A stretch of DNA of 64,000 nt from Chloropicon primus (lineage: Eukaryota; Chlorophyta; Chloropicophyceae; Chloropicales; Chloropicaceae). Numbering within the stretch: the first letter of the stretch is position 1; the number at the start of each line of letters is the position of its first letter. Of this stretch, positions 31,554-37,340 are shown piece by piece. The translations under genes were made by a program, and so were the position numbers. The notes under the pieces are model-generated. The model made no database searches, was not told the DNA's origin, and saw nothing but the letters and a program-made list of their open reading frames with translations. The DNA lies in assembly GCA_023205875.1 (NCBI GenBank), contig CP060763.1, forward strand, positions 706,553 through 770,552, in the 5' to 3' direction.

Positions 31554-34500
31554 ATGAGCGGCAAACCAATGAAGCCGTTCCCTCCTTGGGTTGCAGCGGA
31601 CGAGACGATGAGACTGAATGGAGAGGACTCGGACGAGTATGAGCACCAGGCCATCCAGGAGATCGTCCTGGACGAGAGGGAGGAGCTCCTCAAGGAGTGC
31701 CAGCTCATGTCGCCCTACTGGCGAGGCTTCAAGTCCTCGGAGATATCCCTGCTGGCAGATAAGATTGACCTGCTCAAGCTCGGGGAGGGGGAGTACCTCG
31801 CCAGGAACAGGGAGCAGGCCTGCTTCTTCGGGGTGTACCTCAAGGGCCACGCCGAGGTGACCAACGAGAGGAAGCAGAAGATAGGTCAGCTCTCGGCCGG
31901 AGATATTCTTGGAGAATTCACCTTCTTTGGCGGGGGGTTCAGGGGGGCGGACATCGTGACAAGGAGCAGGGAGAACATCGTGGCGATCTTCCCGTTCCAG
32001 GACTTTATCTCTCTCTACATGAACATGCCCAAAATCGCGTCGAAGATCATTTATGTCCTGAATTGGACGGGTTTCAGTAGGATTGTGCAGGGGGCCAACA
32101 AGAAGAACCCAAAGGAGGACATCAAGGTGTCCAAGAAGCAGCAGCCCAAGGAGGAGAGGAAGCAGATTTTGGCCAACGCCATCGAGAAGTCGGTATTCTT
32201 CGAGCGGGACCACATCTCGCTCTCGGGCTCAGCGGCCCTCGACGTCATTCTGCCGTACTGCCTCTTCGAGAGGTACACGCTCCCCGGCCACGAGGTCTTC
32301 AAGGAGAAGCAAAAGTCGAACATCGTTCTGATGACGGTGGCCGGGTCCATGGACGAGGGCGGGCGGGAGATTCCGGTCGGCAACTTCCTGGGCGAGAGCT
32401 CCCTCCTGCAGGACAACATCGAGTGGTCCTTCAGGAGGCAGGAGGCGAGGAACAAGTCCATGGGACATATTATCGGGCTCAGAGTTTCGGACATCCACGA
32501 GCTCATCTCGACGCACGTGCAGATCGGCCTCACCCTTTACGTGAACATCGCCAGGAGCTGGCTGCTCAAGTACAAGAAGGAGGGAACCCAAAAGAGCGAC
32601 TTGAGTGACGAGGAGATGTACACGAAAGGGTATTTCTTTGACATCGGGCACATCGTGCCCACGGAGGGCAAGGTCGAGAAAATGATCGAAGCCGTGCTGG
32701 AGTCCCAGGCCACGGAGAGGGAGAAGGCGGCGAGGCTGGAGAGGGAAAAGATCAGGAAGAAGAGGCAGGTGGGAAGGAGGACGTCCTTGATGGTGGCGGA
32801 CTTGTCCCCGTACAAGAAGGATGACGAGAAAAAGGACGACGAGGATCAAGGGGAAGAACAATCGGTGATGATTCTCAAGGACCTGGACTTCAATGCGGAC
32901 ATGCTGCACAGTTGCTTGTGCTACAGCAGGTACCTCCTCGGGTTCAAGCAGAGGCAGATCGACGTGCTGTCCTCTGTCATGACTTTTGTGAAGGTCAGGA
33001 GCGGGGAGACCATCACTCAGGCTGGGGAGTTTGCGTCGTACGTGGGGTTCATCGTCTCGGGTGGTGCTGAAGGGCAGTCCCCCGAGGGGAAGATTCTGAG
33101 GGAATTGGCGGTGGGCGATGTCATCGGAGAGTTCGAGTTGTTCCTGGGAGGAACCAGGAGTGAAACAATTCTCAGCGCCAGCGACAACACTGTTGTGGCC
33201 TACATGACGTTCAAACAGCTGCTGGAGATCGCTACGAGGCACGCCAAGCTGTGCATCAAGCTCTTGAACAGTCTGCTGAATGCCGCAGTCAGTCGGAGCA
33301 GGCACGAGTCGTACAGCCTGACCGATCCGCCCAAATCGAATATTTCGCAAAAGGACAAAGCAAAGGTCTTGGACTACCACAAGCTGGAAGGCCTTGGAAA
33401 GTTGTTCAAGCCCTTCGTGGACGAGAAGAGGTTCCAGAGTTACCTGGAGAGGGCAACCATGCTGAGGATACCAAAGCGAAGCGCGGGGATGGCGGACCTG
33501 CTCTTGTTGCCAAACTCCGTCTATGTCTCCGAGGGCACGGTCGAAATCAAGATAGCGGGCGTGGACAAAGTGCAGGGGATCACCCAGTCTTTCATACCCG
33601 ACTTCAGGTTGCTGAAATCCGACAGTATCTACCACATCCAAGGTGCGGAGGCTGTTACTCCTTGCACGCTCATACTCTTTGAGCACAAGCTCATCAAAGA
33701 AATGAGGAGAGATTACCCACTCTTGTCCATTGCCTTCCAACTCCACCTGTCCAAGCTCAACCTTGGCAGTGCTGGGTACAAGGTGGAGAGCTCGGGGGCC
33801 GTGACCAAGTCGATGAGGGTCGGGGAGAAGGCGATGACGAAGACGGAGAAGCTTCGGATGGAAAGCATCATGGCCAAGAAAAAGGAGCAGTACAAGGAGG
33901 AGCTGAAGAAGGCGCAAATGAAGAAGAGGCTGAAGAAGAAGAACGCCAGGATACTCAAGAAGAAGCAAACTCTGGGAACGGCCGTGAAGGATGCAGCGAA
34001 ACTGAAAGAGACAGAAAAGCAACTCGCGAATTTGAGGGCCCAGAACGAGCTCTTCAGGTACTTGGACAACATTCAGTTCCACAGCAAGTGCTTCAGGCAG
34101 TTCACCACAGAGGAAATCAAGACGATCGGGTCTGTTATGTCGATGGTACCCTACAAGACGGGGGAAACCATCATCAAGAAAGGAGACGAGTCTTCCTTTG
34201 TTGTGTTCATGCTGGCGGGGAAGGCGAGCATCAACATCAAGAACGACAAGGGGAAGACCGTCAGCAAGATTGACTTGATGGTCGGCGATATTCTTGGCGA
34301 GATGGCCCTGTTTGAAGGCGGCGTCCGATCAGCAGATGTGGTGAGCGCGAGCGATTCTACTGTGGTGGGTCTCTTGGAATTTACCGGCGTTGTGATGTGT
34401 CACTCGCGACATCCCAAGATTGGCTTGAAGCTTATCTCGTGTTTCGTACAAAGCGCCGTGACGAAGCTGAGGTCGTTTTACTTGAAACAAAACAGCAAAC

Positions 34501-37340
34501 CAGAAGTTTACCCCAAGGAGCACAAGCTTGAATGCACGGAAGAGCACATAAACGAATCTGGCATTTTCTCGTCCCTCCTCACACCGGAGGAGGTGGGGGT
34601 ACTCTGCAAGCAGATGTTCTTGGTAAAGTACAAGGCAGGAGAAAAAATCATTGTTCAGGGAACACTGTCGACCATGATATGTATCGTGGTCTCTGGAACA
34701 GTCCTGACCGGTTCAAGCAACAGCGCGGCGAGAATTGAGCACAATAAGGGCTACTTCCTCGGTGCCGACATCATTAGGCCGGAAACCCTGGTACGTTACT
34801 ACTCGGGATACTCGGAGGAAGAATGCACCATAGCAGTAATGGAGTACGACAAGTTCATGAAGCTCAACAAGGAGGTTCCCAAGTTGGCATTCAAGCTTTT
34901 GGCCAGGATGGCGCAGGAGATCGTGTGGATCGAGAACAACATCCTGCGGCAGAAGATTCACGAAGAGGAAGAGAATGAATCTGACATGGAAGGCGCCAAT
35001 CGCTTCAAGGACTGGACGCAGACGGACGCCAATGCAGTCAATGAAACCCTCCTGAACGTCATCGCAGAAGACCCTGATCGGTACGAGTACAAGGATCCGA
35101 TCGAAAATTTGCTGAAAGACTGCCAGAAGAACAGTCGCCACTTCCACGGGTTTGAGGAGGCAGAGATCCAGTACCTGGCGAAGAAGCTGAAGGTCGTCGT
35201 CCTGCAGCTTGATGAATGTATTGTAAAGGGTGGGGACGACGCCTGTTTTGTGTGTTTGATATTGAGGGGCACGGCCAGAGTTCTAGACAAGGGCGAGAAA
35301 ATCGGGGAGTTGGAGTCTGGTGACGTCCTAGGAGAGCTTTCGTTGTTTGACCAATTTTCAAGGGGGGCAGACGTTCTCGTGGACTCTTCCACTTGCATGG
35401 TTGCCATCTTCAATTTCCAAGACCTGAGAGAGATCCACGAGGAAAACCCCATGCTGGGCTTGAAGGTTCTACGCATCTTCACGAACGCAGCTTGCAACAA
35501 GCTCAGGAGGAGGTGCTTGAACAACCTGAAGCCAGAATCTCCCAACATCAGCCCCTGTTCAAACGACAGGCTCTACCTTCTTCTTCACAGGTGCCACAAG
35601 AAAAACAAGGGGCTTGGGGATGAGATGGACATGTCGTCTGTCCAGTACCTCGCGGAAAGGATGTGCCTCCTGGAATTCGAGTCAGGGGACTTGATCTTGC
35701 GTCGTGGCCAGCGAGCGTCTTACATCTTCTTTATCCTCGAAGGTGTGACTGGGGTCCGCATTAATGGCAACATAGTGGCGCGGAGGGTAGCAGGAAATTT
35801 TATCGGGGAGACGGCGTTCTTCCAAGGTTTCAAGGAGGATGGATCCGAGCGAGATTACTCTGAACGTACAGCGGATGTCGTTGCCGAAGGGAAAGTGCTG
35901 ATAGCGGCAGTGTCTTACAGGCAATTGAAAGAGCTGAATGAGAGGCACCCACTTGTTGCTCTGCTCCTCTTCAGCAGGATAGGAGAGCTGCAGGTCCAGC
36001 TGTTGCGTGGCCAGACAACCGTCAAGAGCGAAGGGAGCGACTCCGACTCTGATTCTGACCTCGAAGAGGAAGAGGTATTAGAAAAGGAGGAGGAAGCTCC
36101 ATCAGCGAAAGCGAAGACCCCGGCACCCCCGGGGAAACGAAGATCGAGCTCCAAAGCTCCAGCCCTCGGAGAGATTCGAGAGGAGGAGGAGGAGGACGAG
36201 GGCGAGGGCGTGATGTTGGAAGAAAGGGCCGAGAAGATCAAAACGTTGAGAAGCAAGATGAAAGAAAGGAAAGTTGCCGAGATGGCAATGAAGTGGCACA
36301 CTATCACAAAGGAGAGCAATTCCCTCGTCACGCCCGCAAATGGAATCTCCGGTGGAGACATTGACGAGGTCGTTTCCAGGCGAATTGATGCAGTGATTGC
36401 TCGAAGGCAATCGATAAGGGACCAGGCAAGAAGGCAGAGCATGATGTCGAGGAGCTCAATCGTGTCCATACAGCCAGAGGCTCAACAGGAGAAGGAGAAT
36501 GGCGTCGGGGGCAAGAAGCTTGTTTTTGCCGCGAGCGAACTTTCTGAGATGGTCATGCGCTGCAAGTCGTTGCTGGACCTGGACATGACAGAATTCGCGG
36601 ATCCTTCAAAGGAAGAAGTGCTGACGATCTTCGAGGAGGTGATGCCCAAAATGGGGATGATTGAAGAGGAAAGGAAGGACATTATTGTCACCACGTTCAA
36701 GTACGAGAGCAAAATCAGAAAGCTGGAAACGGAGAACGTGTTGCTCAAGGAGGAGATGGATGTGAAGGAGACAGACCTTTCGAATATTTACACCCAGCCC
36801 CACGTGCTGGATTTTTTTGAGAAGAGGTTGGAGAGACTCCAAAAAAGCCTTGGGGACAAGGTGAGGGACTGGCAGGAAGAGAAGGAGAGGGCGGACACGC
36901 TGTCAGAGCTGCTGAACAACACGAGGTCAGAGCTCCGAGGCAGGGAGGAGACCGTCAAAAACTTGAAAGAGGAGCTGCAACGGTTGAACGAGGCCTTTGG
37001 GAGCATGACCAAGAAGGAAGGCCCCCGAGCAGAGAGGGTTCCGAGGCACATCGAAACGCTGCGCAGGTCAAGGTCTCAGTCCCCTAGCAAAAGGCAGTTG
37101 TTCTCTCCCAGCAAGGGAGACCTCAATGGTGGAAGGAGCGCGAACGATTTCCACCCATCTCTGAGCCAGCGCTTGCTCCTGTCTCGCCAGAGGGCTGCGA
37201 CGGCTCAGCTCACACCTGTGACCAAGAACAAGTCGTACGGCAATCTCAATGACAGGCCGAGCACGCAGTACTCTGTTCAATATTCTGCGGACCTTCTTGA
37301 CGTCAGATCGTCCCCGCACCTTTCCTTTGACAAACTTTAA
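31554..37340 (+). CDS. Giant protein with eight tandem cyclic-nucleotide-binding-like domains
   Basis: A 1928-residue, single-exon protein. The first ATG is at 31554; the open frame five codons earlier starts with TTG. Eight CNBD-like beta-barrels can be traced. Their phosphate-binding cassettes or equivalents lie near residues 117, 277, 522, 675, 912, 1066, 1257 and 1415. Cassettes 1, 3, 5, 7 and 8 keep the GE...R core (e.g. GDILGEMALFEGGVRSADV in domain 5), though domain 3 has Glu (RSE) where the others have Ala after the Arg; domains 2, 4 and 6 are degenerate. There are no membrane helices and no kinase, cyclase or GEF domain. After the barrels come an acidic stretch (about 1495-1560), a coiled coil (about 1620-1810) and a Ser/Arg-rich tail. 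It is best described as a soluble cNMP-sensing scaffold; ligand and partners are unknown. Confidence 0.88.
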   Translation: MSGKPMKPFPPWVAADETMRLNGEDSDEYEHQAIQEIVLDEREELLKECQLMSPYWRGFKSSEISLLADKIDLLKLGEGEYLARNREQACFFGVYLKGHAEVTNERKQKIGQLSAGDILGEFTFFGGGFRGADIVTRSRENIVAIFPFQDFISLYMNMPKIASKIIYVLNWTGFSRIVQGANKKNPKEDIKVSKKQQPKEERKQILANAIEKSVFFERDHISLSGSAALDVILPYCLFERYTLPGHEVFKEKQKSNIVLMTVAGSMDEGGREIPVGNFLGESSLLQDNIEWSFRRQEARNKSMGHIIGLRVSDIHELISTHVQIGLTLYVNIARSWLLKYKKEGTQKSDLSDEEMYTKGYFFDIGHIVPTEGKVEKMIEAVLESQATEREKAARLEREKIRKKRQVGRRTSLMVADLSPYKKDDEKKDDEDQGEEQSVMILKDLDFNADMLHSCLCYSRYLLGFKQRQIDVLSSVMTFVKVRSGETITQAGEFASYVGFIVSGGAEGQSPEGKILRELAVGDVIGEFELFLGGTRSETILSASDNTVVAYMTFKQLLEIATRHAKLCIKLLNSLLNAAVSRSRHESYSLTDPPKSNISQKDKAKVLDYHKLEGLGKLFKPFVDEKRFQSYLERATMLRIPKRSAGMADLLLLPNSVYVSEGTVEIKIAGVDKVQGITQSFIPDFRLLKSDSIYHIQGAEAVTPCTLILFEHKLIKEMRRDYPLLSIAFQLHLSKLNLGSAGYKVESSGAVTKSMRVGEKAMTKTEKLRMESIMAKKKEQYKEELKKAQMKKRLKKKNARILKKKQTLGTAVKDAAKLKETEKQLANLRAQNELFRYLDNIQFHSKCFRQFTTEEIKTIGSVMSMVPYKTGETIIKKGDESSFVVFMLAGKASINIKNDKGKTVSKIDLMVGDILGEMALFEGGVRSADVVSASDSTVVGLLEFTGVVMCHSRHPKIGLKLISCFVQSAVTKLRSFYLKQNSKPEVYPKEHKLECTEEHINESGIFSSLLTPEEVGVLCKQMFLVKYKAGEKIIVQGTLSTMICIVVSGTVLTGSSNSAARIEHNKGYFLGADIIRPETLVRYYSGYSEEECTIAVMEYDKFMKLNKEVPKLAFKLLARMAQEIVWIENNILRQKIHEEEENESDMEGANRFKDWTQTDANAVNETLLNVIAEDPDRYEYKDPIENLLKDCQKNSRHFHGFEEAEIQYLAKKLKVVVLQLDECIVKGGDDACFVCLILRGTARVLDKGEKIGELESGDVLGELSLFDQFSRGADVLVDSSTCMVAIFNFQDLREIHEENPMLGLKVLRIFTNAACNKLRRRCLNNLKPESPNISPCSNDRLYLLLHRCHKKNKGLGDEMDMSSVQYLAERMCLLEFESGDLILRRGQRASYIFFILEGVTGVRINGNIVARRVAGNFIGETAFFQGFKEDGSERDYSERTADVVAEGKVLIAAVSYRQLKELNERHPLVALLLFSRIGELQVQLLRGQTTVKSEGSDSDSDSDLEEEEVLEKEEEAPSAKAKTPAPPGKRRSSSKAPALGEIREEEEEDEGEGVMLEERAEKIKTLRSKMKERKVAEMAMKWHTITKESNSLVTPANGISGGDIDEVVSRRIDAVIARRQSIRDQARRQSMMSRSSIVSIQPEAQQEKENGVGGKKLVFAASELSEMVMRCKSLLDLDMTEFADPSKEEVLTIFEEVMPKMGMIEEERKDIIVTTFKYESKIRKLETENVLLKEEMDVKETDLSNIYTQPHVLDFFEKRLERLQKSLGDKVRDWQEEKERADTLSELLNNTRSELRGREETVKNLKEELQRLNEAFGSMTKKEGPRAERVPRHIETLRRSRSQSPSKRQLFSPSKGDLNGGRSANDFHPSLSQRLLLSRQRAATAQLTPVTKNKSYGNLNDRPSTQYSVQYSADLLDVRSSPHLSFDKL

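Follow-up and report, generated by a model that had tools for sequence, protein, structure and literature searches.

A Chloropicon primus protein with four tandem pairs of cyclic-nucleotide-binding domains and no recognizable effector domain: a candidate cyclic-nucleotide-responsive scaffold

Introduction

The cyclic-nucleotide-binding domain (CNBD) is an old and well-known module. In the regulatory subunits of cAMP-dependent protein kinase (PKA) the rule is an A-B dyad, two CNBDs that both carry canonical phosphate-binding cassettes, with an inhibitor segment of the form RRx[SAG] ahead of the pair. Ligand changes the A-B arrangement in PKA as it does in cGMP-dependent protein kinase (PKG), and R-R-x-S is the consensus of both kinases. 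CNBD proteins without an effector domain are also known; one of them, CRIS, has a single CNBD. Here we describe a gene from the green alga Chloropicon primus whose product, 1928 amino acids long, contains four A-B dyads in one chain. It lies in a window of 64,000 nucleotides (contig CP060763.1, C10:706553-770552 of the genome); positions below are those of the window unless a contig or locus is named.

Several described proteins invite comparison. Trypanosoma brucei CARP1 has three predicted CNBDs, one of them with a consensus cassette, and binds cAMP (PMC10354285); being a kinetoplastid protein with three domains, it resembles the C. primus protein by functional analogy only. Mouse CRIS is a cAMP-binding CNBD protein outside the known effector classes (PMC3854790), and differs in being an animal, sperm-specific protein. 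Toxoplasma PCR12, reported as 2720 amino acids, is likewise a very long CNBD-bearing protein, with a structural role in the preconoidal ring (PMC12819142); its PDB chain 9ya0_MA (2736 amino acids) was matched by the profile of our alignment A4 with an E value of 5.4e-8. The best PDB sequence matches were to protist PKGs with several CNBDs (Plasmodium, 5dyk), to which PKG-like frames of C. primus itself can be added. These share the CNBD array; unlike them, the 1928-residue protein lacks a kinase domain and has about twice the four CNBDs that Pfam finds in the PKG-like frames of loci L014 and L018.

In C. primus, 30 guanylyl cyclase genes constitute one of the largest gene families (PMC6731263). 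The word "cyclic" is absent from the main text of that genome paper and from a 2025 comparison with C. roscoffensis, and the available part of the genome paper discusses no reader of the guanylyl cyclase messenger (PMC6731263).

Results

The reading frame runs on the forward strand, as do all its features given below, from an ATG at 31554 to a stop ending at 37340, and comprises 1928 uninterrupted codons. An in-frame TAG is found shortly upstream of the ATG, third-position GC is 0.74, and the other five frames across the same interval contain 16 to 95 stops each. A search of about 5.8 billion proteins returned two full-length relatives, of 1949 amino acids (70% identity) and 1933 amino acids (60%), both unnamed ENA sequences and both aligning over 100% of the length. 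That two homologues of similar size align end to end makes it hard to regard the frame as split or fortuitous and, together with the stop counts, rules these possibilities out. Values "in all three" refer to this protein and its two homologues, one of which is labelled P0003. A profile search with the alignment of the three orthologues gave no further sequences. The protein is thus apparently restricted to Chloropicon's algal lineage, a qualification made because the homologue searches were limited to the candidates sharing most words (7978, 7988 and 7984 compared), within length bounds.

Eight domains with the beta barrel and flanking helices of the CNBD superfamily (PF00027) follow one another in the chain, arranged as four A-B pairs. 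The A-type domains are D1 (residues 34-181, 31653..32096, cassette GDILGEFTFFGGGFRGAD), D3 (439-590, 32868..33323), D5 (829-978, 34038..34487) and D7 (1181-1327, 35094..35534), all with a cassette of canonical spacing, GE-x8-R. The B-type domains depart from this arrangement, each in its own manner. D2 (206-345, 32169..32588) is divergent and was detected by profile match only; its Glu281 and Arg294 are separated by 12 residues in all three orthologues. D4 (598-745, 33345..33788) is degenerate, with neither Glu nor Arg in its cassette. D6 (984-1137, 34503..34964) has the Arg, with Ala in place of Glu in all three, and D8 (1332-1487, 35547..36014) has both residues, 18 residues apart instead of 8. 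The profile reference used for detection consisted of 18 domains from nine frames, chosen by cassette pattern, with D2 of P0003 left out. Residues ~186-246 of P0003, the first half of its D2, cannot be aligned although the flanks can, as if two compensating frame shifts were present, be they an assembly error or real.

Glu and Arg are therefore both present in D1, D2, D3, D5, D7 and D8. The preliminary description of this DNA, which had recognized the single frame and the eight CNBD-like repeats, had counted five cassettes; the actual picture is close to this, with four canonical cassettes and two more, in D8 and D2, on longer loops. Because D2, D8 and the B domains of a sister protein (see below) hold both contact residues on such loops, the B domains are best termed altered rather than mostly dead, to judge by their sequences. 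In the A domains, the cassette Glu and Arg are conserved at 23 of 24 residue positions (four domains in three orthologues); the exception is D5 of P0003, where Lys replaces Glu. Residues past the cassette Arg depart from the PKA consensus. Identity in all three is highest in D1 (91%); the other seven domains range from 40% to 72%, D2 being lowered to 40% by its aberrant half in P0003. Variable linkers are 4-28% identical.

A tree of 49 rows places D1, D3, D5 and D7 in one clade with the A domains of the sister gene (support 100/99), which rules out independent recruitment of the A domains and establishes their common origin. For the B domains the tree does not demonstrate a single clade relative to the outgroup; D2, D4 and D6 lie on long branches. 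The tree took three of six aligned sister sequences and, as outgroup, 14 domains obtained by running the cassette pattern on 6 of 20 paralogue frames, five of which gave rows; D2 of P0003, whose first half looks frame-shifted, was left out. One further comparison took P0004, P0005, P0006 and P0008, leaving out the partial sequences P0007 and P0009.

No Pfam domain other than PF00027 reached its cut-off in the protein. Specifically, Pfam gave no protein kinase match, no flagellar marker and, with E values up to 1, no match to the RIIa dimerisation/docking domain. NCBIfam matches were CNBD cross-matches below their cut-offs. The lone hydropathy peak, 1.84 at residue 1032, falls within the barrel strands of D6, making a membrane span unlikely. 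Hence the Pfam scan and the position of the peak uphold the earlier statement that membrane spans and effector domains are missing. The predicted structure of residues 1-802 was poor (pLDDT 39.8) and usable around D4 only; Foldseek listed PKG and PKA regulatory subunits for this model, with query TM-scores of just 0.10-0.17, and these hits were not used.

Outside the CNBDs, conservation is concentrated in a few segments. The motif RRTSL (residues 408-412, 32775..32789), of the type R-[RK]-x-S-hydrophobic, is kept in all three orthologues inside a linker otherwise 22% identical, ~30 residues ahead of dyad 2, the only one of the four dyads so preceded. Column shuffling of this linker produced a site of this strict type common to the three sequences in 0 of 2000 trials. 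By the same test, the KKQTL that precedes dyad 3 does not exceed chance expectation (810/2000). A basic linker between dyads 2 and 3 (746-828, 33789..34037) is 69% identical in all three and predicted to be helical. Downstream of D8, an acidic variable linker (1488-1602, 36015..36359; 20% identical) leads to the conserved block IDEVVSRRIDAVIARRQSIRDQARRQS (1603-1632, 36360..36449; 77% identical), which contains RRQS twice, the serines being S1620 and S1629. Across the region 1488-1657 a strict-type site was common to the three sequences in 1 of 2000 column shuffles; only the first RRQS fits, the second being followed by a hydrophobic residue in one of three orthologues only. The protein as a whole contains two matches to the strict pattern, where shuffles average 0.127 (at least two in 1/300 shuffles), and four to the loose one, where they average 1.07 (12/300); the patterns were defined after the sequences had been inspected.

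Heptad periodicity points to a coiled coil at residues about 1751-1815 (36804..36998). Among 48 windows, six overlapping ones within 1751-1835 reached an uncorrected p≤0.04 against shuffles, the best with 0/500, as did two isolated windows, 1821-1855 and 791-825. The remainder (36999..37337) is a basic, Ser-rich tail with the conserved motifs PRHIETLRRSRSQSP and QRLLLSRQRAATAQLTPVTKN. The coiled coil and Ser/Arg-rich tail proposed before thus stand as a short coiled coil and a basic, Ser-rich tail.

C. primus contains a sister protein of 1046 amino acids with two A-B dyads. Its frame (L019:2217-5354; G000:C1:995580-997808, minus strand; P0004) is 100% identical to HOP50_01g05770, and homologues of 649-1078 amino acids occur among unnamed ENA sequences. 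The two C. primus proteins have the same A-B dyads (34-35% identity to D7-D8) and no Pfam effector, and the sister's B domains have Glu and Arg on longer loops. The sister differs in having two dyads rather than four, other linkers, a tail of its own with the conserved segment GQIRPSSAPTRAGGFSKK, and no RRxS block like that at 1603-1632.

Within the genome searched (17.58 Mb, 20 contigs) we obtained 97 CNBD matches, partial ones included, along with 49 cyclase-domain matches and seven matches to the phosphodiesterase family PDEase_I. Grouping of the match tables gave 13 frames with at least three CNBD matches, some partial; the preliminary view that CNBDs occur as one or two per protein is therefore too narrow. 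Seven of the 13 also match a PKG-like kinase domain. Five more have PF00027 only by Pfam: the 1928-residue protein and the L019, L021, L022 and L023 frames. The thirteenth is the L020 frame. Two neighbouring frames resemble a conventional regulatory subunit, with RRISVSAE ahead of a CNBD pair, and the two closest relatives of the PKG-like kinase domain are frames of 362 and 365 amino acids with no CNBD match in the genome list. These two kinases without CNBD lie at C15:439332-440192 and C4:1252643-1253557.

Discussion

What is new here is that a single effector-free chain combines four dyads whose A sites are canonical and whose B sites are altered; the domain itself is known. An exact-word search of the open PMC literature, covering listings and the openings of abstracts, found no description of this four-dyad architecture. 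As far as that literature extends, the claim that a multi-CNBD, effector-free protein with a short coiled coil had gone undescribed holds. PKA regulatory subunits share with the protein the CNBD-A/CNBD-B dyad, and RRTSL, in front of dyad 2 alone, is a candidate counterpart of their RRx[SAG] inhibitor segment. They differ from it in number of domains (two instead of eight), in having both cassettes canonical where its B cassettes are lengthened or incomplete, and in the dimerisation/docking domain, of which none was found here.

We favour the view, with a probability of about 0.5, that the protein is a cyclic-nucleotide-responsive scaffold of four regulatory-subunit-like dyads. The A domain of each dyad would bind a cyclic nucleotide, cAMP or cGMP; the one argument for ligand binding is that Glu and Arg have been retained in these cassettes. 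The B domains, with a site lengthened (D2, D8) or lost (D4, D6), would probably contribute more to structure and docking. Occupation of the A sites by ligand could shift the A-B arrangement of the dyad, the way it does in PKG and in the regulatory subunits of PKA; the changed arrangement might alter the partners that the dyads hold. The coiled coil may render the chain oligomeric. Phosphorylation by PKA or PKG might take place at the conserved RRxS sites, which make the protein a candidate substrate or pseudosubstrate of these kinases. A cNMP-sensing scaffold had been proposed from the outset: the effector-free multi-CNBD chain is supported, and a scaffold is the most economical reading of it, while the scaffold role is something we infer. 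That messenger levels are read cooperatively is conjecture. Absent from that first proposal were the dyad arrangement, the two-dyad sister, the conserved RRxS motifs and the further effector-free CNBD proteins of the genome.

A serious alternative is that the protein is a constitutive scaffold with a structural role, perhaps in the flagellar apparatus or the cytoskeleton, and that its CNBDs act mainly as protein-protein modules. It gains weight because the B domains are altered and because CNBD proteins that are effector-free or structural elsewhere, CARP1, CARP11, CRIS and PCR12, belong to flagellar or apical settings. The coiled coil and basic tail would suit such a role, as would the nearly complete flagellar gene set that the genome holds although vegetative cells are without flagella (PMC6731263). 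Purely structural use, however, does not require ligand-contacting Glu and Arg to be kept at 23 of 24 positions in the A domains, and the protein has no flagellar marker by Pfam. We judge this explanation unlikely, if clearly deserving of attention. The RRTSL site raises another prospect, that of a giant regulatory subunit whose dyads and RRxS segments, acting as pseudosubstrate or substrate, would hold free PKA-like catalytic subunits until ligand releases them. Conservation of the site in all three orthologues (0/2000 shuffles, the pattern being post hoc) agrees with this, and the genome offers both conventional regulatory-subunit-like frames with RRISVSAE and, in the 362- and 365-residue kinase frames, potential partners without CNBD matches. 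Nevertheless, one dyad only has such a site ahead, KKQTL before dyad 3 being at chance level; the other two RRxS sites come after the CNBDs, the second poorly conserved in its hydrophobic position; the sister family shows scattered loose matches between dyads, none conserved across members; and an RIIa docking domain is missing by Pfam. We find the idea doubtful, and equally so its polyvalent form, in which the four dyads would offer four to six sites for cyclic nucleotide and the RRxS segments would gather free PKA-like catalytic subunits, to be released or activated in graded fashion. If true, the latter would make the protein an integrator of signals in a genome that encodes about thirty guanylyl cyclases.

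The number of candidate sites in one effector-free chain, in a genome with very many cyclases, would also be compatible with a messenger buffer or sink, in which many tight sites shape the spread of cyclic nucleotide with no downstream partner; as this leaves the conserved basic linker, the RRxS block and the tail unexplained, we think it improbable. We give still less credence to the A sites binding another ligand, such as a nucleoside. Trypanosome PKA does bind purine nucleosides (PMC10959531), and the A cassettes differ from the PKA consensus in the residues that follow Arg. Against this, the A-domain Arg is present in every orthologue, and its PKA counterpart interacts with the cAMP phosphate (PMC10354285). 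Under the favoured reading, a cyclic-nucleotide-responsive scaffold, the protein and the sister with two dyads may be counted as candidate readers of the guanylyl cyclase messenger in this green alga of the ocean, whose genome is small. The alternation of canonical and altered CNBDs along one chain further illustrates the amplification of a sensing module, some copies of which drift from sensing.

Additional observations

Other CNBD-containing frames of C. primus have unusual arrangements. Those at L022:2549-5494 (minus strand), L023:2506-6549 (plus), L021:1492-5184 (minus) and L027:2436-4667 (minus) are long, have PF00027 as their sole Pfam family and carry long acidic or low-complexity insertions within some CNBDs. 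A frame of 1878 amino acids (L025:1297-6930, minus strand; G000:C18) matches two class III cyclase domains and one or more CNBDs, and by eye its sequence seems also to hold a metallo-beta-lactamase-like stretch and membrane spans. The frame at L020:1331-5566 (minus strand; G000:C14) has three CNBD matches followed by an apparent patatin-type phospholipase, and that at L017:1354-4299 (minus strand; G000:C1) has two CNBD matches, a kinase match and an apparent PP2C-like phosphatase, the phospholipase and phosphatase both recognized by reading the sequence. A PP2C-CNB-kinase subfamily was given as plant specific by Kannan et al. 2007 (PMC2246266).

In the window, the four-dyad gene is followed by a GNT-I family gene (PF03071; 37398-38816, minus strand), the stops of the two genes being ~55 bases apart, and by a Carnosine N-methyltransferase family gene (PF07942; 39252-40523, plus strand).
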